Assembly (NCBI GenBank): GCA_025774245.1
Contig: JALGWI010000043.1
Coordinates: 1-33,119 of the forward strand
DNA: 33,119 bases
Reading direction: 5' to 3'
Source of the DNA: a bacterium
GTDB taxonomy: Bacteria > Joyebacterota > Joyebacteria > Joyebacterales > Joyebacteraceae
In this document: positions 1,074 to 26,738 of the stretch, one piece after another
Layout of the letters: each line of letters starts with the position of its first letter
Numbering within the stretch: position 1 is the stretch's first letter
The notes under the pieces: generated by a model
What the model saw: the letters and a program-made list of their open reading frames with translations, nothing else
Told to the model about the DNA's origin: nothing
Databases searched by the model: none
Position numbers and translations under genes: made by a program

Positions 1074-3054
1074 GAGGCTACGGACAAGTGTGAGAGCGAC
1101 AACAAACAGCGGTAGGCACTTCCGACACCCTCCCGCGACCTCTGGTGCGGGGCGACGTGGTGCCGTGCACACCCTCCTCGTGGCCGGGCTCATCTCATCA
1201 GTGTTCACGATCACGACTGTTCGGCTCGCAAGTCCCCTCACCATCGACGAGCCCCTCACGGCGCTAGCACTCTTCGTCGTTGCGCCGACCGTGTTGATCA
1301 TCCTACTCGGCCTCGTCCGGCCATTCGTCGGCGGCACCGTGGCCGCAGCGCTCCCTTTCGCGTGGTTGGCCATCATAGTCGGCCCTGGCGATCCGGTAAC
1401 GCTCTGGCTTCTTCCCGTCGCTTGCGCCGTGGTCCTGGGAGCGATGTTCAGACATAGGCTCCGGCGCGAGGCCGCGCGCGCGGTCGCCGCAGCCTGTGCG
1501 GGCGCCCTGGCGATCGCACTCCTGCTCCCGCAGCCCGGAGCGCCACGTGACGGTACCCGCACGGTGCTCATTGGCATCGACGGAGCCTCCTGGCAGTGCG
1601 TCGACGCGGGCATCGCAGCCGGCCGCATGCCTAACATCGAGCGCCTTCTCGAGAAAGGACATCGCGCGAGGCTTCGTTCGCTCCCGTCCATGCTCTCCCC
1701 TCAGGTGTGGAGCGCCATCGCGACCGGCTGCCCTCCCGAGGTCAGCGGGATCTACGGCTGGGCCCATTCACAGGCCGACTTCCGAGTCGGGCGCGTCTGG
1801 GAGCGGATGTGGATCGACGGCCGCACGGCGGGAACCTGCGGCTGGTACTTCACATGGCCGCCACCGGACGGTCTTTCCGCAGGAGACTTCGTGGTTCCGA
1901 GCACTCTTGCACCTGACTGCTCGGCTCTCCCGCCGAACTGCGGCTTCTTCTGGGAGATGTGGGCGAGACACAGCGGGCGGGGGACCAGCAGCGCAACGCA
2001 GGTCACCGGCCTGCTGAACGCGCTGCGCAGCGGAGTGCGGCTCTCGACGTTGCGGAGAGGCTTCTTCGTGCTCGCCGGCGGATCCGGCGATGATCTGCTG
2101 GACATCGATCGCGTCTGGAAGAGGCGGCAGATATCGGCGGCGATACAAGGCGACATGTTCTCCGAGCTTCTCAGGAGTCGCCGACCCGAGCTGGGGGTCG
2201 TCCTCTTCAATCAGATCGACAAGGTGAGTCACCTGTACTGGAAGTACAGGGAGCCGAACGCGTTCCCCGACGTGACCCCGGAGGAGGCTCAGCGGCTGGG
2301 CTCGACTGTAGAGCTTCTCTACGCGGAGGCTGACCGCTGCGTCGGCAAGATCTTGAGAGCGCTCCCGGACGAGGCCAACGTGGTCATCGTGTCGGACCAC
2401 GGGTTCCGGCCGGCAGTGCGCAAGGTCATGGGGCGCTTCTGCAGGATCCGGGCCGAGGCGCTCATCCAGGCTCTTGACGCCCACGAGATCATCCTTGGCA
2501 CGAACCTCGACCGGAAGGTGTATCTCGAGATCGTCTCGGGAACCGAAGTGGAGCGGGAGGAGACGATCCGCAGACTCGAGTCGGTGCTCACGGACGCCCA
2601 CATCGACGGGGAGGATTCCGGCGTCTTCACTGTCGCGCGTGAGGGCAACGTCCTGGAACTGGAGATCGCTCCGAGAAACGAGGTTCCTGAGGTCGCGAGC
2701 ATCATCCTCGCCGACCGCGAATACGGGTTCGACTCCCTCATCGCGGCACGCCTGGAGGCACGGTTCTCCGGGGAGCACGCGCTCGACGGGGTCTACTTGC
2801 ATGCGGGCCCGATGGCCGCGTTCGCGGCGAAGACCGATTCGCTGAACGTCCTCGATGTCGCCCCGACCGTGGCGGCCATCCTGGGGCTGCCCATGTCGAC
2901 GCTGTGGACCGGCCGCCCGGCATTCGATGAGACGGCGCCCGTGCGACTCGAGTACGGCGAGTACCCGCCACCGACCGCCCTCTCGTCCATGCGGAGGGGC
3001 GCGCCGGACGAGACGCTGAAGGAAGAGCTCAGATCGCTCGGATACGTCGAGTAG
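1060..3054 (+). CDS. Membrane-anchored alkaline phosphatase-superfamily phosphodiesterase
   Basis: This is a type I phosphodiesterase/nucleotide pyrophosphatase-like member of the alkaline phosphatase superfamily, which hydrolyses phosphate esters with two metal ions. Residues ~35-160 hold about four hydrophobic helices. The catalytic domain starts at TVLIGIDGASWQCVDAG (first metal-binding Asp). LSPQVWSAIATG places Ser where the family usually has the Thr nucleophile. FNQIDKVSHLYWKY supplies the Asp and His, and NVVIVSDHGF the Asp-His pair. The C-terminus ends in EELRSLGYVE, a tail common in sulfatase-like proteins of FCB-type candidate phyla. The gene stands alone between two IS3 remnants. 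The GTG at 1060 is the longest start; later GTG codons near 1090 and 1165 are possible and no strong ribosome binding site decides. The substrate is unknown. Confidence 0.8.
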   Translation: MWATKRLRTSVRATTNSGRHFRHPPATSGAGRRGAVHTLLVAGLISSVFTITTVRLASPLTIDEPLTALALFVVAPTVLIILLGLVRPFVGGTVAAALPFAWLAIIVGPGDPVTLWLLPVACAVVLGAMFRHRLRREAARAVAAACAGALAIALLLPQPGAPRDGTRTVLIGIDGASWQCVDAGIAAGRMPNIERLLEKGHRARLRSLPSMLSPQVWSAIATGCPPEVSGIYGWAHSQADFRVGRVWERMWIDGRTAGTCGWYFTWPPPDGLSAGDFVVPSTLAPDCSALPPNCGFFWEMWARHSGRGTSSATQVTGLLNALRSGVRLSTLRRGFFVLAGGSGDDLLDIDRVWKRRQISAAIQGDMFSELLRSRRPELGVVLFNQIDKVSHLYWKYREPNAFPDVTPEEAQRLGSTVELLYAEADRCVGKILRALPDEANVVIVSDHGFRPAVRKVMGRFCRIRAEALIQALDAHEIILGTNLDRKVYLEIVSGTEVEREETIRRLESVLTDAHIDGEDSGVFTVAREGNVLELEIAPRNEVPEVASIILADREYGFDSLIAARLEARFSGEHALDGVYLHAGPMAAFAAKTDSLNVLDVAPTVAAILGLPMSTLWTGRPAFDETAPVRLEYGEYPPPTALSSMRRGAPDETLKEELRSLGYVE

Positions 3055-3614: not shown

Positions 3615-4115
3615 CTACGTGAAAATGATCTCTGAGCCGGCTGACAGCTGGTAGAACTCGCCAACGGTCAGGACCTTCTCAACCTCGTCGCAGAAGTCTT
3701 CCGGCTTGAGGTGGAACATGTCGACCGTGGCCTTGCAGGCGTACAGGCGGCCGCCGGCGTCATGGATCATCTCCAGGAACTCGGGGATGGGCGGGATGTC
3801 GAGCTGCTCCATCTCCTTCATCATCATCTTCGTCGCGAATGTCGACATCCCCGGAATCGCACCGATGATGGTCGGGAGCAGTATGCCTTTGGCGTCCGGG
3901 ACCCGCATGGCGGGATTGCCGACGGTAGCGATCTTGATCTTCTCATTGAACTTCTTGAGGATGGCGTAGAGACCGAAGAACGTGAAGAAGATCGAGGCCT
4001 CAATGCCCTCCATTCGCGCCCCGTTGGCCATGATGAGGGCCGGGTAGATGCCCTCCAGCGACCCCTTGGAGCACACGATGGACACGCTCTTGATCTTGCC
4101 GTCTGCTTCCGACAT
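3615..4115 (-). CDS. DsrE2-like sulfur-carrier protein (DsrE/DsrF/DrsH family)
   Basis: This 166-residue protein of the DsrE/F/H-like family is a cytoplasmic or membrane-associated sulfurtransferase that passes persulfide sulfur between partners. The N-terminal strand-loop holds a Cys in VSIVCSKGSLEGIYPALIMA. It is followed by the typical hydrophobic helix EASIFFTFFGLYAILKK. A second conserved Cys lies in GGRLYACKATVDMF near residue 127, the position used for sulfur transfer in DsrE2-type proteins. It is the last gene of a four-gene minus-strand operon, 19 bases after the DsrC-like gene. The context supports a role in moving sulfane sulfur produced by the flavoprotein. The family call is firm; the exact partner is inferred. 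Confidence 0.85.
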   Translation of the reverse strand: MSEADGKIKSVSIVCSKGSLEGIYPALIMANGARMEGIEASIFFTFFGLYAILKKFNEKIKIATVGNPAMRVPDAKGILLPTIIGAIPGMSTFATKMMMKEMEQLDIPPIPEFLEMIHDAGGRLYACKATVDMFHLKPEDFCDEVEKVLTVGEFYQLSAGSEIIFT

Positions 4116-4134
4116 GAGGAGATCTCCTGTTCTG

Positions 4135-4452
4135 CTAGATGCAACTCGCGGGCTTCGGCAGCCCCGCGATCTTGGTCGACTTCTTCAGCGGGCCGTCCGG
4201 GAAGAGCGCGTACAGCTCCTTGGTCGGAATGTCCCCCGTCTTCTTGATGCGGCGGATGCTGGGCACCTGACCCTGCTCGGCGGTGTCCTTCCGCAGGAAG
4301 TCGATCACCTTCCAGTGCTCGTCGGTCATCGGGCCTATCCCCAGCTCGGCCGCGATGGCCTCGCCGATGGCGCGCGTCCACTGACCGGGGTCGGTCAGGT
4401 AACCCTCTTCGTTCACGTCCACGGTGACGCCTGCGATCTCTGCGCTCGGCAT
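4135..4452 (-). CDS. DsrC/TusE-family sulfur relay protein with a single C-terminal Cys
   Basis: This 105-residue DsrC/TusE-type protein is a small carrier that binds sulfur on a flexible C-terminal arm. Recognisable parts are the N-terminal GVTVDVNEEGYLTDPGQW, the DEHWKVIDFLR helix, and the arm ending GLPKPASCI. The penultimate Cys (CysA) is present. The second Cys of true DsrC, eleven residues earlier in the family pattern CKVAGLPKPTGC, is Thr here (TKIAGLPKPASC). It should therefore carry a persulfide like TusE-type or DsrC-like relatives rather than form the DsrC trisulfide. The ATG at 4452 matches the family N-terminus. It lies 17 bases after the flavoprotein gene in the same operon. Confidence 0.9.
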   Translation of the reverse strand: MPSAEIAGVTVDVNEEGYLTDPGQWTRAIGEAIAAELGIGPMTDEHWKVIDFLRKDTAEQGQVPSIRRIKKTGDIPTKELYALFPDGPLKKSTKIAGLPKPASCI

Positions 4453-4469
4453 GTGTCTCAAGCTCCTCT

Positions 4470-5717
4470 CTAGTTCCCGATCCTCTTCCCCACCATGGAC
4501 ATCTTCGTGCTGATGCCCGGCATGGGGTGTCCCTTCAGAAGCAGGTTCCAGTAGATCCATCGAAATGCGAGTTTGCCCATGTGGTTGAGCCGCGTCTCCT
4601 TCAAGAGCTTGAACGGTCCCACCACCGGCAGCGGGAAGGCTCCCTCCGTCGGTTCGATCTCATAGTTGAAGTCGATAAGGAAGGCCTTGCCGTGTCCCGA
4701 CTCGATGAAGCAGTTCGCATGCCCGTCGAACCCGGGATCCAGCGGCTGCCCGGCGATGTAGCGCTGGATGTTCTCGGTCAGCACGTCCGCCTGGAAGTGA
4801 GCCACGGAACCGGCCTTGGAACTCGGCAGGTTCGTCGCGTCACCGATCACGAACACGTTCTCGTGCGCCTTCGACTGCAAGGTCTGCGGGTCGGTGGGAA
4901 CGAAATTGAGTTCGTCGCCCAGCCCCGAACGCTCGATGCAGGGATCACCCATGTTCGTGGGAACAGTGACCAGCAGGTCGTACTCGATCTCCCTCTCATC
5001 GTAGGAGATGAGCTTCTTGCTCTCGGAGTCGATGCGCTCGCACATGAAGTCCGGAACGAACTCGATCCGCCTGTCGTCCAGCATGTCCCCGAGCACGACC
5101 GCGCAGTTGTGCTTGGTGAAGGCCTCGGAGAGGGGCGAGACGTACCGGATCTCCGTCTGTTCGCGGACGCCCTGTCTGGTGAGGAAGGCCTCCGCCAGGA
5201 GCGTGAACTCGAGAGGGGCCACCGGGCACTTGATCGGCATCTCGTTCAGGTGCACGACCAGCTTGCCGCCCTTCCAGCCCTTGAGACGCTCGCGCAGCGC
5301 CTTGGCGCCCTCAATCGTGTAGAAGTCGAAGATGTCGCGCCGCCATGCATCTCCCAGCATCCCCTCGGTCTCATCGGGCACGATCTTGGCCCCCGTGGCG
5401 ATGATCAGGATGTCGTACGCGAGCTTGTCGCCGTTCTTGAGGTGGACTTCGTTGTCGTCGGCCGCGATGCGATCGATCCCCTCCTGCATATGCGTGACGC
5501 CCTTGGGGATGAAGGCGGTCTTCGGCTTGCAGACGTCCTTCTCGTCGTACGTTCCGAAGGGTATGAACAGGAACCCCGGCTGGTAGTAGTGGGTGGAGTG
5601 CTCGTCGACGATCGTCAGCGCCCACTCGTTCCCGTCGAGCTTCCGAACGAGGTGGTTGGCCATCATGGTTCCGGCGGTGCCGGCGCCGAGTATTACGAGC
5701 TGCTTCACGGGGCGCAT
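4470..5717 (-). CDS. Sulfide:quinone oxidoreductase-like FAD flavoprotein
   Basis: This 415-residue pyridine-nucleotide-disulfide-type flavoprotein is most like sulfide:quinone oxidoreductases, which oxidise sulfide to sulfane sulfur and pass electrons to quinone at the membrane. LVILGAGTAGTMMANHL is the FAD-binding Rossmann motif, and YDILIIATGAKIVP is the second dinucleotide motif. NVFVIGDATNLPSSKAG is the C-terminal FAD contact typical of the family. Candidate redox cysteines are in EMPIKCPVAPLEF and GHANCFIESG. The tail is amphipathic (KLAFRWIYWNLLLKG) as in membrane-bound SQR. It follows the ArsR-type gene by three bases and precedes the DsrC-like gene. The subtype (SQR, or a related reductase feeding DsrC) is not certain. 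Confidence 0.85.
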   Translation of the reverse strand: MRPVKQLVILGAGTAGTMMANHLVRKLDGNEWALTIVDEHSTHYYQPGFLFIPFGTYDEKDVCKPKTAFIPKGVTHMQEGIDRIAADDNEVHLKNGDKLAYDILIIATGAKIVPDETEGMLGDAWRRDIFDFYTIEGAKALRERLKGWKGGKLVVHLNEMPIKCPVAPLEFTLLAEAFLTRQGVREQTEIRYVSPLSEAFTKHNCAVVLGDMLDDRRIEFVPDFMCERIDSESKKLISYDEREIEYDLLVTVPTNMGDPCIERSGLGDELNFVPTDPQTLQSKAHENVFVIGDATNLPSSKAGSVAHFQADVLTENIQRYIAGQPLDPGFDGHANCFIESGHGKAFLIDFNYEIEPTEGAFPLPVVGPFKLLKETRLNHMGKLAFRWIYWNLLLKGHPMPGISTKMSMVGKRIGN

Positions 5718-5720
5718 CTC

Positions 5721-6041
5721 CTATGCGAATCGTTTGTCGATGAACTCGATGAGCTCGGCCAGTCTGCGGTCACGAAGATGGTAGATGATGCGCTGCTTCT
5801 CCCGGGTCTTCTCCACCACGCCGGCCAGCGTCAGGATCCGAAGCTGCTGCGAGACGTTGCTGAGCTTCCCTGTCTGAATCGTGTCGACGATCTCGGTAAC
5901 ACAGAAGTCCCCCTCCGCCAGCATGCAGAGGATGCGGAAGCGGGTCTTGTTGGACAGGAGCGAGAAGGTGTCGATCACACGCCGACACGCATCGTCGCCG
6001 TCCGCAAAGCGCTTCTTGATCTGTGCGATCGTTCGGCTCAT
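5721..6041 (-). CDS. ArsR/SmtB-family transcriptional regulator of the sulfur operon
   Basis: This 106-residue winged-helix repressor has a typical ArsR core: LLSNKTRFRILCMLAEGDFCVTEIVDTI, then a recognition helix around LSNVSQQLRILTLAGVV and the wing REKQRIIYHL. Cys residues occur in DDACRRV, RILCML and DFCVTE, so thiol-based sensing of sulfide or persulfide (as in SqrR/BigR) or metal binding are both possible. The usual ELCVC metal motif is incomplete. It is the first gene of the operon and is preceded by a strong GGAGGAG ribosome binding site. It probably represses its own operon through the dyad at 6068-6092. Confidence 0.88.
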   Translation of the reverse strand: MSRTIAQIKKRFADGDDACRRVIDTFSLLSNKTRFRILCMLAEGDFCVTEIVDTIQTGKLSNVSQQLRILTLAGVVEKTREKQRIIYHLRDRRLAELIEFIDKRFA

Positions 6042-6067
6042 CGAAGTGCTCCTCCAAGACTACAATT

Positions 6068-6102
6068 ACTATTAAACTATCGGATTATCAGTAGGAAGTC
6101 AA
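6068..6102 (-). promoter_or_regulatory. Promoter with overlapping dyad operator for the sulfur operon
   Basis: Read on the minus strand, TTGACT (6097-6102) and TAGTTT (6074-6079) are separated by 17 bases, a plausible sigma-70-type promoter in an AT-rich island of a GC-rich region. Between and across them lies the imperfect dyad ACTnnTAAnC...GnTTAnnAGT (6068-6092; 7 of 12 base pairs symmetric). A dyad over the promoter is the usual position for ArsR-family repressors, and the arsR-like gene begins 27 bases downstream. Confidence 0.6.
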
Positions 6103-6212
6103 GCCCGAGTCCTATCCCCAGGACCGGCCCAGGCCTGCCCGTCTTCAGCGCTTTCCGGCGTTCAGTGGGGGGCAGCGGCAGGAAGGAGTACCTGAACCGA
6201 ACCTGGCCCACC

Positions 6213-6290
6213 ACGTCGTGAATAGCCACGTAGCGGGCCACCGCTACCAACGCGATGCGGACACCCGTCTCCTTGGAGGTGGGTGTTTGC
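6213..6290 (+). repeat. Array repeat copy 1: beta left half, tRNA-3'-end-like core, type I hairpin
   Basis: Core GGGCCACCGCTACCAA at 6235-6250. The left half (ACGTCGTGAATAGCCACGTAG) matches copy 8 with few changes. On the minus strand both encode RYxAIHDVxG after the core. The right half is the imperfect hairpin GACACCCGTCTCC / GGAGGTGGGTGTTT within 6257-6290, shared with copies 2, 4 and 7. To its right a serine-recombinase remnant reads directly into the hairpin. Confidence 0.75.
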
Positions 6291-6562
6291 ACGGAGGACG
6301 GCACGGGCGGACGGCCGAAGAGGTGCATCAGGATGTCGCCGGTGTCTGGCTCGAGTTCTGTCTCCTTCACGAACAGGCGCGTGAATCGCCGCCTCTCGTC
6401 TCGGGCCCCGACGGAGAGCACTATTGGCTCCGGTCGCGGGGCGGTCTGTTCTGGCCGAGCCAGGAGTTGAACAGCTGCCCGATCCCCTTGGTCACAGCAC
6501 CCTCTATGGCTTCCTTCGGGAATCCAACTGACTGAACCCGAATCAAAGTAAGCACAGCCCGA
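6291..6562 (-). pseudogene. Large serine recombinase remnant (zinc-ribbon/C-terminal pieces, internally deleted)
   Basis: Two fragments match the more complete recombinase piece at 15282-15812. KEAIEGAVTKGIGQLFNSW (about 6450-6550) corresponds to KEALETAVVEEIGHLFASW. RFTRLFVKETELEPDTGDI followed by LMHLF (about 6295-6375) corresponds to WVSLFMKRIEVDPDAGDI followed by LMHLF. They are in different frames and the coiled-coil between them is missing, so the gene is broken. The catalytic domain is absent. The 3' end runs into the type I hairpin of repeat copy 1, as at copy 4. Confidence 0.6.
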
Positions 6563-6648
6563 GCCTGCCCGAGGCGATTTCGGGTGGTCACCGGGCAAGC
6601 AGTGCGCAGGAGCGCCAGCGTCGGTGAGGGAGAGAACCAGGAGAGGCG

Positions 6649-8374: not shown

Positions 8375-8679
8375 ATGGCGGTCAGGGGAGGCACGTGGCC
8401 GCATGTGGGAAGAGGAGGCGCAGGACCACGGGGCGAGCGCGTTCTCACTCTCTCACTCGGGGTCCCGCCCTGGAAGCTCAGCATCGAGCAGTGAGAGCGG
8501 ATTCGGAAGAAGTTGTCGAGCAGGAGGTGAATCCGAGCGTGGTCTGACTGCCGTCGGCTGCGACGGTTTTGGGAACGTGGCATCTAAGCCAGAGGCCCGG
8601 CAGCGACGGTTCCCTGCGTCGATCGTCGCGCTCACTTCGTTCGCGACACTCCAAGTCCACGTATTATGAGGAGAAACAC
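8375..8679. other. Gene-free spacer before the barrel-like gene
   Basis: I see no supportable gene here. A GTCGCG...CGCGAC inverted repeat lies at about 8625-8647. The sequence TATTATGAGGAG directly before the next gene combines an AT-rich segment with its ribosome binding site. Confidence 0.4.
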
Positions 8680-9348
8680 ATGCGATTCTGGACGATCCTG
8701 ATACTGACCACGCTCCTGGCTGTTCTGATTCCGGCAGGATCCGCCCGCGCGCAGCAGTGCGGTCCGGCATGCCCCGCCTGTTCCGGAAAGGCCATCGGTG
8801 ACCTGCTGCCGCCGGGAACGGTTCTCGGCTCCGGGCTCCTCATCCCCGATGGCGAGGAGGAGACCGCCGTCCTCAACGCCCGCTACGGACTCTTCTCCTG
8901 GATGGATGCGGGAGTCGGGTACGCGGTCGAAGCGGAGGAAGTCATCTGGAGTGTCCGCGTGCAGCCGATTGCTCAGAATCTGGATGGGTGGCGTCCTGCG
9001 CTCATTCTGGGCACCGGCAGCGTGCAGACGGGCGGGAGTGACCAGTCCGCCTACTTGCAGCTCGCCAAGACGGTCGAGATCGTCGAAGGCCGTCTCGCGA
9101 CGAGCGTGGCAGGTGGCTATGCCACGGACCTCCCGGACATGCAGGAGGACTGGGTTCTGGGGTTACTCTCGCTGACACTCTACGATAGGGTGAGCCCTTT
9201 CTACACCTTCGACGGAATCAACTCGCATGTCGGTCTGTCCTACTTCGCGACGGAGTGGTTGACCCTGACCGCCTACGCTCTTGAGATGAGCGACTTCGCG
9301 CTGTCGGTGGTCATCCAGTGGGGTCCCGGTGAGGACGAGGAGGAGTAG
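8680..9348 (+). CDS. Exported barrel-like protein with a Cys-rich mature N-terminus
   Basis: This 222-residue protein starts with a clear signal peptide (MRFWTILILTTLLAVLIPAG, cleavage likely after SARA). The mature protein begins with CGPACPACSGK, three closely spaced cysteines. The rest consists of alternating hydrophobic strands (NARYGLFSWMDAGVGYAVEA, LTLYDRVSPFYTFDG, HVGLSYFATEWLTLTAYAL) and ends with a short strand and an acidic tail EDEEE. This pattern fits a small outer-membrane or periplasmic beta-barrel. The function is unknown. The ATG at 8680 has a GAGGAG site upstream. It stands alone between repeat copies 2 and 3. Confidence 0.7.
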   Translation: MRFWTILILTTLLAVLIPAGSARAQQCGPACPACSGKAIGDLLPPGTVLGSGLLIPDGEEETAVLNARYGLFSWMDAGVGYAVEAEEVIWSVRVQPIAQNLDGWRPALILGTGSVQTGGSDQSAYLQLAKTVEIVEGRLATSVAGGYATDLPDMQEDWVLGLLSLTLYDRVSPFYTFDGINSHVGLSYFATEWLTLTAYALEMSDFALSVVIQWGPGEDEEE

Positions 9349-14995: not shown

Positions 14996-15184
14996 CGCGA
15001 GCAGGCCCCCAGGATCATGCGAGATGCGGAAGGGCCGTCGGGTCGTGCCGACCGCCCCACGCACCGTAGTCTATCGCATGACGCCACTCGCTGCATCCTG
15101 ATTCCGCTCGGCACCCCGCTCTCTCAGTTGCTCTCATCGCGGAGACAACGTGTGCCGCCGGGACAGACGGAGACGCAGCTCCCG

Positions 15185-15281
15185 ACGCTCGGGCCCTGTT
15201 GCCCAGGAGGTCGCAGGTTCGAATCCCGCCCCCGTTACCAACTCGATGCAAACACCCGTCTCCTTGGAGGCGGGTGTTTGC
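15185..15281 (+). repeat. Array repeat copy 4: tRNA T-arm plus CCA end, type I hairpin
   Basis: This is the most tRNA-like copy. It has T-arm GCAGG-TTCGAAT-CCCGC at 15213-15229 (one mispair), then CCCCGTT-A-CCA ending at 15240. The anticodon side is degenerate and no pairing 5' acceptor strand is found upstream, so it is a remnant, not an intact gene. The type I hairpin (15248-15281) is nearly perfect: GCAAACACCCG-T-CTCC against GGAG-G-CGGGTGTTTGC. It is the 3' end of the serine recombinase fragment to the right. Confidence 0.8.
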
Positions 15282-15812
15282 ATAGGGGCCAGCATGGTCG
15301 GGCAGTCGAAGAGGTGCATCAGGATGTCGCCTGCGTCCGGGTCCACCTCGATCCGCTTCATGAACAGACTTACCCACTGCCGCTTCTCCTCCCTGGTCCC
15401 GGTGGAGAACACCTCCCCGAAGGCTTCGCGGCATCTCTCTACCAGGGATGCATCCACTCGCATGACCTTGGGCTTTGGGGCGGCCTCCTCTTGCCGAGCC
15501 AGGAGGTCCGCTCGTTCAGCCTTCAGGTAATCTAGCTCAGCACTTGCCCAGTCGATGTCGTCGAGCCCAGCCTTGACCGCGTTGCGCAGGTTCTCCGTTT
15601 CGTTCTCCACCCGCGCCAGTTCGCGGGTGAGCTCGGCAGACTCAGCGGACTCCTGCTTCTGCTGAACCTGCAGCTCGTCGTTCATGAGTTGCGCCAGACG
15701 CTCGGTGTCTGCCCAAGAGGCGAACAGGTGACCAATCTCCTCGACCACAGCGGTCTCCAGAGCCTCCTTCCGGACCTGGATAGAGCAACGTTCTTTCTGT
15801 AAATCGGGCTCT
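15282..15812 (-). pseudogene. Large serine recombinase, C-terminal fragment
   Basis: The minus strand reads a continuous frame, CDPEPDLQKERCSIQVRKEA through ALETAVVEEIGHLFASWADT (end of the zinc-ribbon domain). A long coiled coil follows (SAELTRELARVENETENLRN, then an ELDYLKAERADLLARQEE heptad region), then REEKRQWVSLFMKRIEVDPD. This is the C-terminal half of a large serine integrase. The N-terminal catalytic Ser domain and DNA-binding recombinase domain are missing, cut off by the IS256 remnant at 15816. The frame stays open through the hairpin and the tRNA-like end to 15134, as happens when the attachment site lies at the 3' end of the integrase gene. Confidence 0.75.
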
Positions 15813-19783: not shown

Positions 19784-21370
19784 CTAGTCGACGCAACCGG
19801 CGCCAAGGCGCGATTTCTGAAACTCAGATTTCAGCAGGTAGCTCTGTTCCACCGCCACCAGATCGGATTCCGCAAGACCGGCCGAGACGGCCGTCATGTT
19901 CTCGGACGCAGCGCTGGTCTCCACTCGACGCAGCTCGTAGAGATCACCCTCAAGCCGGACGAAGACGAAGGGCTTACCTCCGAAGCGGTATACCGAGTCA
20001 CGCGGCACAAGCAACGACGCAGAGCTTCCTCCGACTACGATGCTCGCGTCCACGAACATCCCTGCACGTAGCGACTCGTCGGGATTCGCAACCTCCGCGC
20101 GTACCTCCGCCATTCGCGTCATTTCATTGAGGCGGCTGGGAATCCAGGTGATGTGCCCTGTGATCTCGCGATCGACCGCCTGGGAACGAACCTCGACGAC
20201 TTGGCCGACTCGAAGATCCATGACGTCTCTTTCAGAGACAGCCAGGGTGAGCCACAGCGTGCTCAGGTCCGCAACCGAGAACACTCGCTCGCCGACTGTG
20301 ACCGCGGCACCGACGACTGCATCCCGCTCGATAACGGTCCCTGCGAACGGAGCCACCAGAGGAAGATCGGACACCGTCTCCTGTTCCGACACGATCCGTT
20401 CGAGCACCTGTCGATCGAAACCGAGACCGAGCAGCATTTGTTCGGATGCTCGGAGGCTCGCGCGGGCCGTCGTGTACCGGGCCTCCGCGTCGTGGAGATC
20501 CTGCGCGGAAGACACCCTCTTCTCAAAGAGTCCACGTTCGCGAGATTGCGCCTCGAATGAGACCGTCTCTTCGGCCACCGCCTTGAGCAGCTCCGCTTTT
20601 GCCTCGGAGATTCCCGGGGAGTTGAGTTCGGCAAGAACTTCTCCTCGTTTGACCTTCTGCCCGAGTTCGACGTGAATGCGGCTGACGACGCCATCGGTAA
20701 GAGGCGTGATGTGCACGAGGTGATCTAGGTTGTACCCTAGTTGGCCTGCGGCATTCACGCTCGACCTCACCGAACCGCGTTGGGCGTGCCGCGCGACAAT
20801 GTGTGACTTGGTCTCGGACGCCATGGACGGCAGGCGGATCTTGAGACCCTGTCCGGGCTCCAGATTGTCCGCGAGCGCCGGCTGGCATATACCGCATTCC
20901 GCCTCGGGAACGTTGTGTTCCCCGCAGAAGAGGGCATCGGGCCCGTCCGCGGAAGAACCGTGTCCGGTCTCCTGCGGACTGGAGGCCGACTCCTCCATCT
21001 GCAGTTCGGGGTGACAGAGGAAACACTCGTCCTCAAAGAGACCGTGCTCGTCGCAATAGAGCCGGTTCTCGTCTCGCAGCTCCGGGTGACAGTCAAAGCA
21101 GCGGTCCTCGTAGCGCTCGTGCCCTCTGCACCACAAACGACCCGGTTCACGCAGCGCCGCATCGCAGATGAAACACCGGCTTGCGGCTACACCGTGCGCA
21201 AGACACAACGCGCCCTCCGACTGAGGTGCCGACGCATCCGAATGTGACTCCGCCTGGGAGGTCGCGGCTGGGATCTCAGCCTCGCTCTTATCTTCCGCGT
21301 CGCCGCCGCATCCCGCCAAGAACAGCGCCAGCAAAGAGAGCAAGGCTCCTGTAAGACAGTTCCTGATCAT
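19784..21370 (-). CDS. czcB: RND periplasmic adaptor lipoprotein with four C-x2-H-x6-C-x2-C repeats
   Basis: This ~528-residue membrane-fusion protein links the RND pump to the outer-membrane channel. It has a signal peptide with lipobox LAGC (Cys ~21). Residues ~56-162 contain four units with identical spacing C-x2-H-x6-C-x2-C (CLAHGVAASRCFIC, CRGHERYEDRCFDC, CDEHGLFEDECFLC, CGEHNVPEAECGIC), each followed by xxxL. These look like four small zinc-knuckle-type metal sites. From ~residue 210 the classic adaptor follows: barrel/lipoyl halves (GVVSRIHVELGQKVKRGEVL and LVAPFAGTVIERDAVVG) around an alpha-hairpin, then the membrane-proximal domain. The ATG at 21370 gives a proper signal peptide behind AAGGAAC. 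It is in the middle of the efflux operon. Confidence 0.92.
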   Translation of the reverse strand: MIRNCLTGALLSLLALFLAGCGGDAEDKSEAEIPAATSQAESHSDASAPQSEGALCLAHGVAASRCFICDAALREPGRLWCRGHERYEDRCFDCHPELRDENRLYCDEHGLFEDECFLCHPELQMEESASSPQETGHGSSADGPDALFCGEHNVPEAECGICQPALADNLEPGQGLKIRLPSMASETKSHIVARHAQRGSVRSSVNAAGQLGYNLDHLVHITPLTDGVVSRIHVELGQKVKRGEVLAELNSPGISEAKAELLKAVAEETVSFEAQSRERGLFEKRVSSAQDLHDAEARYTTARASLRASEQMLLGLGFDRQVLERIVSEQETVSDLPLVAPFAGTVIERDAVVGAAVTVGERVFSVADLSTLWLTLAVSERDVMDLRVGQVVEVRSQAVDREITGHITWIPSRLNEMTRMAEVRAEVANPDESLRAGMFVDASIVVGGSSASLLVPRDSVYRFGGKPFVFVRLEGDLYELRRVETSAASENMTAVSAGLAESDLVAVEQSYLLKSEFQKSRLGAGCVD

Positions 21371-21418
21371 CGTTGTTCCTTCTTGTGGGTGTCCAGTTCT
21401 GGACATCGTAGAGAATCA

Positions 21419-24326: not shown

Positions 24327-24761
24327 ATGAGAACGATCTGTGCAGCTCTGGTCACTGCGGCTCTGGTGTTCGCCGCCGTCTCGGCAACGGCCGCGACGCA
24401 CGATGTCACCGTCGGTCCCGGTGGCTTGTTCGTGTTCTCGCCCGCAGACATCACCATCGCTGTGGGTGACACCGTACACTGGGTATGGGACAGCGGCGGA
24501 CACAACGTCGCCTCGGGTGTTCCGGGGACGCCAACACCCTACTTCCTTTCTGGTCCCCCAGATCTCGCGGGAACCACATTCGACGTAGTGTTTGACGCGG
24601 CTTTTCTAATCGCGAACCCGGTTCCCGGAGACGTCTACGACTACTACTGCCAGCCCCACGGCGAGCTGTTTGGCATGGTAGGTTCGGTTACCGTGACAGC
24701 CTTTACCGCGGTGCCGGACGAGGCTGTGTCCTGGGGGCGCATCAAGGAGCTCTACCGCTAG
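24327..24761 (+). CDS. Exported cupredoxin (plastocyanin/azurin-like blue copper protein)
   Basis: This 144-residue single-domain type 1 copper protein probably acts as a periplasmic electron carrier. The signal peptide (MRTICAALVTAALVFAAVSA) is cleaved near ATA-A. The fold is shown by GGLFVFSPADITIAVGDTVH. The first Cu ligand His is in DSGGHNV. Cys, His and Met follow in YYCQPHGELFGM (C-x2-H-x5-M), with GSVTV as the last strand. The C-terminus carries an extra tail, DEAVSWGRIKELYR, which recurs in exported proteins of several FCB-type candidate phyla and may be a sorting or anchoring tag; that meaning is inferred. It stands alone, but the downstream haem-porin suggests redox cargo. Confidence 0.9.
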   Translation: MRTICAALVTAALVFAAVSATAATHDVTVGPGGLFVFSPADITIAVGDTVHWVWDSGGHNVASGVPGTPTPYFLSGPPDLAGTTFDVVFDAAFLIANPVPGDVYDYYCQPHGELFGMVGSVTVTAFTAVPDEAVSWGRIKELYR

Positions 24762-24869: not shown

Positions 24870-24908
24870 GCGAGAGTGCGGTCATGAGGACGGGCCGGAG
24901 TCTCAAGA

Positions 24909-24964
24909 GCGCCCCCGCTACCAGCTCGAAGTGAACACGCGTCTCCTCGGAGCCGGGTGTTTGC
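24909..24964 (+). repeat. Array repeat copy 7: core with decayed type I hairpin
   Basis: Core GCGCCCCCGCTACCAG at about 24909-24924, then GAACACGCGTCTCC-TC-GGAGCCGGGTGTTTGC, the type I hairpin with several mispairs. The left flank is neither alpha nor beta. Confidence 0.7.
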
Positions 24965-25117
24965 TGTGGGGTCGAGGAGTCCGGATCGACAACTCCAGGG
25001 AGCCTCCTACAATGCGTGTAACCGGAACTCGCTCTGCAGCAGCAGGGGACAGTCCGGTGGCGAGCGGGGGCGTGAATCCATGAAGAACCGCCGGGGCGGC
25101 CGCAGGCGTCAGGGGGA

Positions 25118-26377
25118 ATGGAAATGAGAACTCTTGGAATCGGGTTGATCGTCGCGCTGTCGTGTATCCTGGCGTCTGTGCTTCTGGCGCCGACGTCGCT
25201 TGCGACGTCCACGCGGGAGCTCTACGAGCTCAAGTGCTCGCGATGCCACGAGGCCTACGAGCCCGCGAAGTACTCGGCGGCCGAATGGCCGGGGCTCGTG
25301 CGATCCATGAGGGGCCAGGCGGCTCTCACTGAGCAGCAGACGATCGCGCTCGGCAGGTTCCTGGCATTGGAGAGCGCCGCGGCCGACACGACCGGCGCCG
25401 GGTCGAGTGTCTCCCAGGCTCCTCGGGTCGGAGGATACCTGTACACGGAGTACTTCCGTACGCAGGAGGAGACCAAGAACTTCGACATCCACTACCTCGC
25501 GATCAACGTCTCCGGTTGGGCGAACGAGTCGATCTACTACTACGGCGAGTTCGAACTCGAGCACGGTGGAGTAGGTGGCACCAACACGTTCGTCGAGCAG
25601 GCGTACATCGACTACTGGCTCCGGCAAGAGCTCGCCCTCAAGATCGGGGCGATGCTGACGCCGTTCAACCGGTTCGACGAGTTCCACGATCCTCTCAGCA
25701 ACTACACGGTCACCCGGCCACAGGTCGCGCGGGAGATCAGCGTGAGCGCGTGGAAAGAGGTCGGAGTCGATCTCCACGGATACGTAGGGCTGGGCGGACG
25801 ATCGGCGGTCGGCTACGACCTGTACGTGATCAACGGGCTCGGGTCGGGGACCGATCTCAGACACAGCCGTCAGTACAGGGACAACAACGAGGACAAGGCG
25901 TTCGGCGGGCGGCTCTTTTGGCTCTTCGGGGACTCCCTCGAACTCGGCGGTTCGGCCTACCGCGGCGCGTGGGACGACGGCGGCGAGTACTCCGTCGGCA
26001 TATACGGTGCACACTTCCTCCTCGACACTGCATTCGCGGGCTTCTACGGGGAGTATCTGTCGGCCACGTCAGAGAACCCTGAGCCGACGGAGAACGGAGA
26101 GATGTCGGGCTACTTCATCCAGGCTTCGAGGCTCCTCGCTTCCCGATTCCGGCCGACCGTGCGGTACGGGAGACTCGACTACCTCGACCTCGGCGACGAG
26201 CTCGGGCGGGACCCGGACAAGGGCAACAAGGACGTGAGCGAACTGGTCCTGGCCTTCGGCTGGTATCCGACTCCGGATGTCGTGTTCAAGATCGAGTTCG
26301 CGTTCATCATGGAGGGCCCAAGACTGGAGGAGAAGGACAACGACCAGCTCGGGCTTCAGGCCGCGGTGAGGTTCTAG
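25118..26377 (+). CDS. Outer-membrane porin with an N-terminal c-type haem motif
   Basis: This 419-residue protein has a signal peptide (LGIGLIVALSCILASVLLAP), then a ~70-residue cytochrome-c-like segment, ELYELKCSRCHEAYEPAKYS. The haem motif is CSRCH, and a possible distal Met lies in GLVRSMRGQA. The final helix is EQQTIALGRFLAL. A short linker (DTTGAGSSVSQAPR) leads to a ~300-residue beta-barrel of the phosphate-selective-porin style (GGYLYTEYFRTQEE, IYYYGEFELEHG, IDYWLRQELALKIGAMLTPF) ending in a terminal strand with C-terminal Phe (LGLQAAVRF). This fits an outer-membrane pore whose periplasmic side can receive electrons. A second ATG at 25124 is an equally good start behind AGGGGGAATGG. 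The haem-porin coupling is inferred from the fusion. Confidence 0.82.
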   Translation: MEMRTLGIGLIVALSCILASVLLAPTSLATSTRELYELKCSRCHEAYEPAKYSAAEWPGLVRSMRGQAALTEQQTIALGRFLALESAAADTTGAGSSVSQAPRVGGYLYTEYFRTQEETKNFDIHYLAINVSGWANESIYYYGEFELEHGGVGGTNTFVEQAYIDYWLRQELALKIGAMLTPFNRFDEFHDPLSNYTVTRPQVAREISVSAWKEVGVDLHGYVGLGGRSAVGYDLYVINGLGSGTDLRHSRQYRDNNEDKAFGGRLFWLFGDSLELGGSAYRGAWDDGGEYSVGIYGAHFLLDTAFAGFYGEYLSATSENPEPTENGEMSGYFIQASRLLASRFRPTVRYGRLDYLDLGDELGRDPDKGNKDVSELVLAFGWYPTPDVVFKIEFAFIMEGPRLEEKDNDQLGLQAAVRF

Positions 26378-26509
26378 GCGTCGCCCCGACCTCGCGCGCT
26401 CTGGATTCGTGTCGCGCGGCAGCTGGCGCGTGGTTGGCTCGCAGGTCGGCGAGCAGTGACCTCGCAGCGGAACATAGCAGCCCGTGTCGCCGCGCCAAGC
26501 CAAGGCCGT

Positions 26510-26660
26510 TCACTCAGCTCGGACTCCCGGTCCGGGACGACGGCCGTTTCTCGGAAGCGGCCAAACTACTCTCAGCCGCTCCCCCATTACGTCGTGGATA
26601 GCCTTGTAGCGGCCCCCGCTACCAAATCAGAACCGCCCGGACCAGAAGGTCCGGGCGGTT
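26510..26660 (+). repeat. Array repeat copy 8: beta left half, core, type II hairpin
   Basis: Core GGCCCCCGCTACCAA at 26611-26625. The beta left half TACGTCGTGGATAGCCTTGT matches copy 1. On the minus strand it encodes GGRYKAIHDVMGERLRVVWP, stop at 26510-26512. The right half is the perfect hairpin AACCGCCCGGACC-AGAA-GGTCCGGGCGGTT (26631-26660). No U-tract follows, so terminator activity is uncertain. The interval 26378-26738 holds nothing else that I can identify. Confidence 0.8.
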
Positions 26661-26738
26661 TGCCACTCCAGCGTGCGGGCTCCCCAGGCTCGGGCGTACA
26701 CGACAAGGCCGTCGCTAGCCGGACAGACGAAACCCGAG

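Follow-up and report, generated by a model that had tools for sequence, protein, structure and literature searches.

The question raised by this locus is whether a single polypeptide, encoded in a stretch of 33,119 nucleotides (hereafter the window), joins a c-type cytochrome to an outer-membrane pore and, if so, what such a chain would do. An open reading frame holding a CSRCH motif, a small cytochrome domain and an outer-membrane barrel was described in the initial annotation, and this description is borne out by Pfam and NCBIfam domain matches and by conservation of the motif. Computation places a signal peptide, a cytochrome domain of the DHC/TorC-C-terminal type and a 16-stranded porin in one chain (Table 1). 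Read from the sequence, the chain of this haem-porin opens with a plain signal peptide and has Phe as its last residue. It contains exactly one CxxCH; when the protein was shuffled 20,000 times, the motif appeared in two of the shuffled chains. Purifying selection acts on the gene: compared with its two nearest copies, dN/dS is about 0.14 for the one on contig C112 and 0.15 for the one at locus L026.

Table 1. Features of the haem-porin gene and of the repeats that surround it, in window positions.
Feature	Position	Strand	Basis
Haem-porin coding sequence, 419 aa plus stop	25118..26377	+	ORF call, Pfam, NCBIfam, homologues
Signal peptide, residues 1-29	25118..25204	+	Cleavage after SLA by eye; helix 2-22 in model
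Class-I c-type cytochrome domain, DHC/TorC-C-terminal type, residues 31-92	25208..25393	+	Pfam, NCBIfam, profile and model searches
CSRCH haem-attachment motif, residues 40-44	25235..25249	+	Sequence, homologues
Met64, predicted distal haem ligand in W-x6-M	25307..25309	+	Constant spacing to haem Cys; DHC sixth-ligand His position
Short linker, residues 93-102	25394..25423	+	Alignment, model
16-stranded porin barrel, Porin_O_P type, residues 103-419, C-terminal Phe	25424..26374	+	Pfam, model, structure match
Left boundary repeat: tRNA-Met 3' end (CCCCCGCTACCA) and hairpin	24899..24975	+	Repeat search, alignment to C112
Right boundary repeat: same tRNA-Met 3' end and a different hairpin	26600..26656	+	Repeat search
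CCCCCGCTACCA copies	6238, 8322, 9614, 15229, 16439, 24912, 26613, 28896, 32161	+	

The barrel was recognised by Pfam Porin_O_P (PF07396) above its gathering cut-off (29.7 versus 20.9 bits, E 5e-7), a family matched in six of nine members of the haem-porin family at E up to 0.01. The full-length AlphaFold2 model has 16 strands at low confidence (pLDDT 50.5, pTM 0.54) and is too poor to show whether the haem domain lies inside the barrel or beneath it; in a structure search the model hit classical porins, OmpC and OmpE36 among them (E 3e-14 to 1e-13).

As to the kind of cytochrome, several searches converge on the dihaem cytochrome c (DHC) and TorC families. Pfam DHC (PF09626) was found at residues 36-92 with E 4.7e-4 in the whole chain, where it scores 21.6 bits; the domain alone reaches 24.6 bits against a cut-off of 22.2. 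In a search of the own genome both haem-porin copies exceeded the cut-off, and all eight family members searched gave a DHC match at E up to 0.1. The match covers only positions 1-61 of the 116 in the profile, and only one of the two haem-binding sites of DHC is present. The NCBIfam model of the TorC C-terminal haem domain matched residues 31-88 with E 1.6e-7, at a score far under its whole-protein cut-off. A haem-domain profile, built from six fused rows and two stand-alone rows, found the DHC structures 3u99 (E 6e-7) and 2fwt (E 5e-5). Modelled alone, the haem domain folds into three helices with a pLDDT of 78, better than the full-length model. Foldseek returned no significant match for this model; in a second look with VIA over 71 chains the top five rows were all c-type cytochromes, three of them DHC, with Z of 4.5-5.6, values around 5 being weak for a small helical domain. 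In DHC, the sixth ligand of the first haem is a His located 17 residues before a Tyr-Leu pair (PMC2909971). Met64 stands 16 residues before Phe81-Leu82 of the C helix, that is, where DHC has this His, and by this parallel in spacing His44 and Met64 are predicted to be the haem ligands.

Further CxxCH-barrel fusions, for which a genome search had been proposed in the initial annotation, were recovered. Among 98 relatives, 17 genomes matched the haem-porin at 1e-5 and yielded 24 rows: five full or near-full fused proteins (the own genome twice, G002, G025 and G008), 18 more distant barrels and one separate cytochrome gene. The fused gene is present in three of 20 genomes of the window's own phylum and in two of four of the phylum of G025. 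A scan of named genomes gave eight loci, in the own genus and family, the phylum of G025, Calditrichaeota, Longimicrobiales, another member of the Gemmatimonadetes, and Zixibacteriota. The fused form is one clade, spread over at least five phylum-level groups. The earlier description had also considered that homologues lacking the Cys pair might be just as frequent; CxxCH, Trp57 and Met64 (W-x6-M) are found in all nine proteins with an open N-terminus (the window's and eight others), with identical spacing from the first haem Cys to the Met, across at least four phylum-level groups. In the tenth homologue, from Zixibacteriota (L031, 8070-8090), an in-frame TAA and one further residue precede CGRCH and the downstream frame is intact, which may reflect an assembly error or decay. 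None of the 18 distant barrels carries the motif in its chain, and for two of them it lies in the next gene. Of three barrels on Manganitrophus plasmids, two were retrieved, and neither has a CxxCH in its retrieved flanks.

The haem-porin gene stands alone in a 1.7-kb segment between the copies of CCCCCGCTACCA at 24912 and 26613. The window holds nine copies on the plus strand at up to one mismatch, where 0.09 would be expected; each is followed by one of two hairpin types (by eye), and together they split the window into segments of 1.2-8.5 kb, an arrangement that looks like the tandem accretion of integrative elements. Window positions 24911-26663 are 90% identical to positions 2478-728 of contig C112 (locus L040), where an intact tRNA-Met (2466-2542, minus strand) is followed by the second haem-porin copy (728-2478) and then by an M90 peptidase gene. 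This peptidase also occurs at the right end of the window, the C112 version being without 78 nt of the window version, and contigs C60 and C112 may represent a single locus in two strains. A tRNA-targeted island is marked by direct repeats of the tRNA 3' end at its boundaries and by an intact tRNA at one end, and both are seen here, the intact tRNA-Met lying beside the other copy. The arrangement resembles the ssrA islands of Dehalococcoides, described as tandem cargo segments between direct repeats of the 3' end of an RNA gene (PMC3146451), and differs from them in that the target is tRNA-Met and that no integrase was identified in the window. A serine-recombinase reading of 15134-15748 (-) and 6077-6598 (-) was dropped, as neither gave a Pfam match. 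Another lone gene between two tRNA-end repeats is found at 8569-9348 (+); its product is secreted and beta-barrel-like by eye and has no Pfam match. As the haem-porin gene is the sole cargo of its segment, a dedicated partner gene alongside it is probably not required.

A functional, conserved linkage to the cupredoxin gene at 24327-24761 (PF00127, E 4e-11) had been suggested in the initial annotation, and this part of it does not hold. The cupredoxin gene ends 356 nt upstream of the haem-porin gene, and a tRNA-3'-end repeat lies between the two, placing the cupredoxin in another cassette. No cupredoxin homologue was found near any of the nine other fused genes in the flanks retrieved, some of which are short. 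Among the 98 relatives, a cupredoxin was detected in four genomes, including G001, a genome of the same genus that has the cupredoxin (83%) without the haem-porin; G002 has the haem-porin without the cupredoxin. The cupredoxin was accordingly set aside as a partner. Elsewhere in the window, an RND adaptor-like protein (by eye) is encoded at 19784-21406 (-) beside efflux genes, and has a long Cys/His-rich N-terminal stretch with repeated C-x2-C and CHPEL motifs.

The same kind of haem domain also accompanies porins as a separate protein. Across 386 genomes, the haem-domain profile was matched at 29 places in 24 genomes, six in fused genes and 23 in stand-alone genes. In seven of the 23 cases a related barrel gene on the same strand immediately precedes the cytochrome gene, with gaps of -31 to 343 nt, and all seven cytochromes have a lipobox. 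The seven come from four other bacterial families; two of the seven (G043 and G092) had been part of the search profile, and a third (G235) shares its genus with G092. When the profile was built from the fused rows alone, cytochromes with and without a porin neighbour ranked intermixed, and the linked genes were not singled out as parents of the fusion. In a tree of 29 barrels, from which rows below 200 aa were left out (the linked barrel of G235 and the unlinked L017), the fused proteins form one clade (100/100) and six linked rows fall in two other places. The association of cytochrome and porin recurs in three barrel lineages, leaving aside any descent of the fusion from either operon. A DtxR-type metal regulator is located about 0.5-0.6 kb upstream in two of the seven pairs (G043 and G192), and DUF2231, DUF302 and, by eye, a large RND-like pump ORF are found near the G092 pair; such neighbours give a hint of metals and no more. 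Similar gene sets surround the porin-lipocytochrome pair at L038 (3263-9302, minus strand) and L070 (1125-7133, plus strand), comprising the porin, the monohaem lipoprotein, a putative barrel, DUF2231 and DUF302 (by Pfam in L038 only), with a second c-type cytochrome in the L038 set. These sets are possibly concerned with metal handling.

What such a chain might do can be approached from its architecture. The reading that we prefer, with a probability of about 0.6, is that of a single-chain outer-membrane electron-transfer pore, Cyc2-like in its working and built from a different cytochrome. The haem would be attached in the periplasm by the genome's Ccs-like cytochrome c assembly machinery, and attachment is plausible because assembly genes (PF01578) are present twice in the genome. 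At L040, a ResB-like gene (by eye) and a CcsA-like gene (PF01578) occupy 3680-6134 (-), about 1.4 kb upstream of the second haem-porin copy. Porin N-termini are periplasmic, and for this reason the haem, ligated by His44 and Met64, would be positioned at the periplasmic mouth of the barrel. A periplasmic N-terminus is also stated for Cyc2 (PMC8406198). The substrate would be a soluble one-electron species, in the simplest case a metal ion or small complex, that enters the pore and trades one electron with the haem; the haem in turn would give an electron to a periplasmic carrier or take one from it. A single haem at one mouth is unable to bridge the membrane, so that a soluble substrate would have to reach it through the pore, and solid minerals are unlikely substrates. 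No neighbour gene of the haem-porin points to a particular substrate, and no multihaem ORF was seen beside the eight fused loci from the named genomes. Regarding direction, no match to PF00115 or PF01654 (haem-copper and bd oxidases) was obtained in the own genome at E 0.001; given that this genome is 97.4% complete, the absence of a terminal oxidase is likely, not certain. The relatives of the haem domain that have been studied best, DHC (PMC2909971) and the C-terminal domain of TorC (PMC11727998), are proposed electron donors, and with no detectable oxidase, outward electron transfer is at least as likely as the uptake known from Cyc2.

The rival that survives best holds that the protein is a solute porin whose cytochrome domain is a docking or storage point, so that the haem feeds a periplasmic enzyme docked there, with no electron transfer across the outer membrane. 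The barrel topology, which puts the haem domain on the periplasmic side, is consistent with this, as is the fact that the cytochrome is a lipoprotein in the two-gene version; moreover, the C-terminal haem domain of TorC is proposed to pass electrons to the periplasmic enzyme TorA (PMC11727998). Nevertheless, inspection by eye showed no conserved enzyme gene next to the fused genes, and the use of a pore instead of a lipid anchor as fusion partner suggests a role for the pore; we regard the docking role as unlikely.

Much less probable is descent from Cyc2 itself, which would make the protein a divergent Fe(II) oxidase. The layout, length and strand number are those of Cyc2, namely a single N-terminal CXXCH, a 16-strand barrel (the strands here being taken from a low-confidence model) and at least 365 aa. 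According to Keffer et al. (PMC8406198), Cyc2, which oxidises Fe(II), is defined by AXPXFAR[Q/K][T/Y] about five residues before CXXCH, a motif called unique to it, and by PXL four residues after. The first motif is missing from all nine proteins (the window's and eight others) and PXL from all eight aligned rows, in which the Pro is conserved and is never followed by x-Leu. When the 386 genomes were searched for AXPXFAR[Q/K][T/Y], matches were found in 16 genomes, none of them the own genome, and 14 ORFs fitting the motif were taken as a Cyc2-like comparison set, the 12 longer than 300 aa serving for a profile-profile test. Neither the barrel profile nor the haem profile of the haem-porin matched the 14 proteins (best E 0.11 and 0.3), and a single BLASTP pair showed no similarity. 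With hhalign against the 12, the barrels did align locally (probability 98, E 7e-14, residues 127-419, about 10% identity), a match to be read in the light of the general tendency of outer-membrane barrels to resemble each other in such tests. This local alignment omits the haem domains, and the barrels may therefore share ancestry while the cytochromes differ. With the defining motif absent throughout and a full class-I cytochrome of the DHC/TorC-C-terminal type in its place, an assignment of the haem-porin to Cyc2 was rejected.

Equally improbable is a haem-based sensor or gate, in which the redox state of the haem or ligand binding would open or close the pore. The haem domain could sit like a plug at the pore mouth, and redox sensing had been proposed in the initial annotation; against this, His/Met ligation, as predicted here, is typical of electron transfer and not of ligand binding, and nothing was found that favours gating. 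Finally, it is scarcely credible that the protein is an ordinary porin with a chance or degenerate CxxCH. The early stop in L031 and the 18 distant barrels without the motif in their chains speak for this reading; against it speak the rarity of the motif in shuffled chains, dN/dS of about 0.15, conservation of the motif in nine of nine proteins over at least four phylum-level groups and the assembly genes in the genome.

The haem-porin is thus a genuine and conserved fusion of cytochrome and porin that is distinct from Cyc2. The open-licence PMC literature searched yielded no description of a porin fused to a DHC/TorC-type cytochrome; the layout is already known, and the cytochrome and the lineage are new within that literature. 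A more far-reaching proposal, which we advance tentatively and consider doubtful as a whole, is that these proteins represent an independently built second class of single-chain conduit. A class-I His/Met haem of the DHC/TorC type would have been joined to OprP-like porins at least three times (one fusion and two operons of a porin and a monohaem lipoprotein), and the fused form would move as a one-gene tRNA-Met segment, exporting electrons to a soluble acceptor in bacteria that lack terminal oxidases. If so, the fused monohaem-porin plan arose more than once. The family also matters in practice, given that Cyc2 serves as the marker of fused cytochrome-porins and that the published criteria require its N-terminal motif. 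Having the Cyc2 layout without this motif, the family would be missed by motif-based screens. A vent study reported Cyc2 homologues in several of the same phyla and, as its methods are described, kept only sequences with a Cyc2-like N-terminus (PMC9769843), a rule under which the haem-porins would go uncounted. In addition, the family supplies defined fused and two-gene proteins, from little-studied groups, for testing what a single haem can do at the mouth of a pore.

Among known systems, DHC (PF09626; 2fwt, 2fw5, 3u99), through its first haem domain, and TorC, through its C-terminal one, are relatives of the haem domain described here, which differs from DHC in having one haem, a Met in place of the distal His and a porin fused to it. 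ExtI of Geobacter is similarly a phosphate-selective-porin-like barrel associated with c-type cytochromes; these are separate multihaem proteins in a large cluster, and no fused cytochrome is described for ExtI (PMC5877670). The Mtr, Mto, Pio and Omb porin-cytochrome complexes also combine an outer-membrane barrel with a cytochrome for electron transfer, and do so with separate multihaem cytochromes and larger barrels of 26 strands (PMC10654088), whereas the haem-porin does not pair its barrel with a multihaem cytochrome. The initial annotation had viewed conduits as usually split between subunits and a fused version as unusual, a view that overlooks Cyc2, already known as a fused monohaem cytochrome-porin (PMC8406198). 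It is with Cyc2 and Cyt572 that the likeness is closest: a single chain of more than 365 aa, one N-terminal CxxCH and a 16-stranded OprO/OprP-like barrel (PMC8406198, PMC10654088). As in Cyc2, the haem would be expected to lie at the barrel's periplasmic mouth; unlike Cyc2, the chain carries a DHC/TorC-type class-I cytochrome in place of the short Cyc2 domain.
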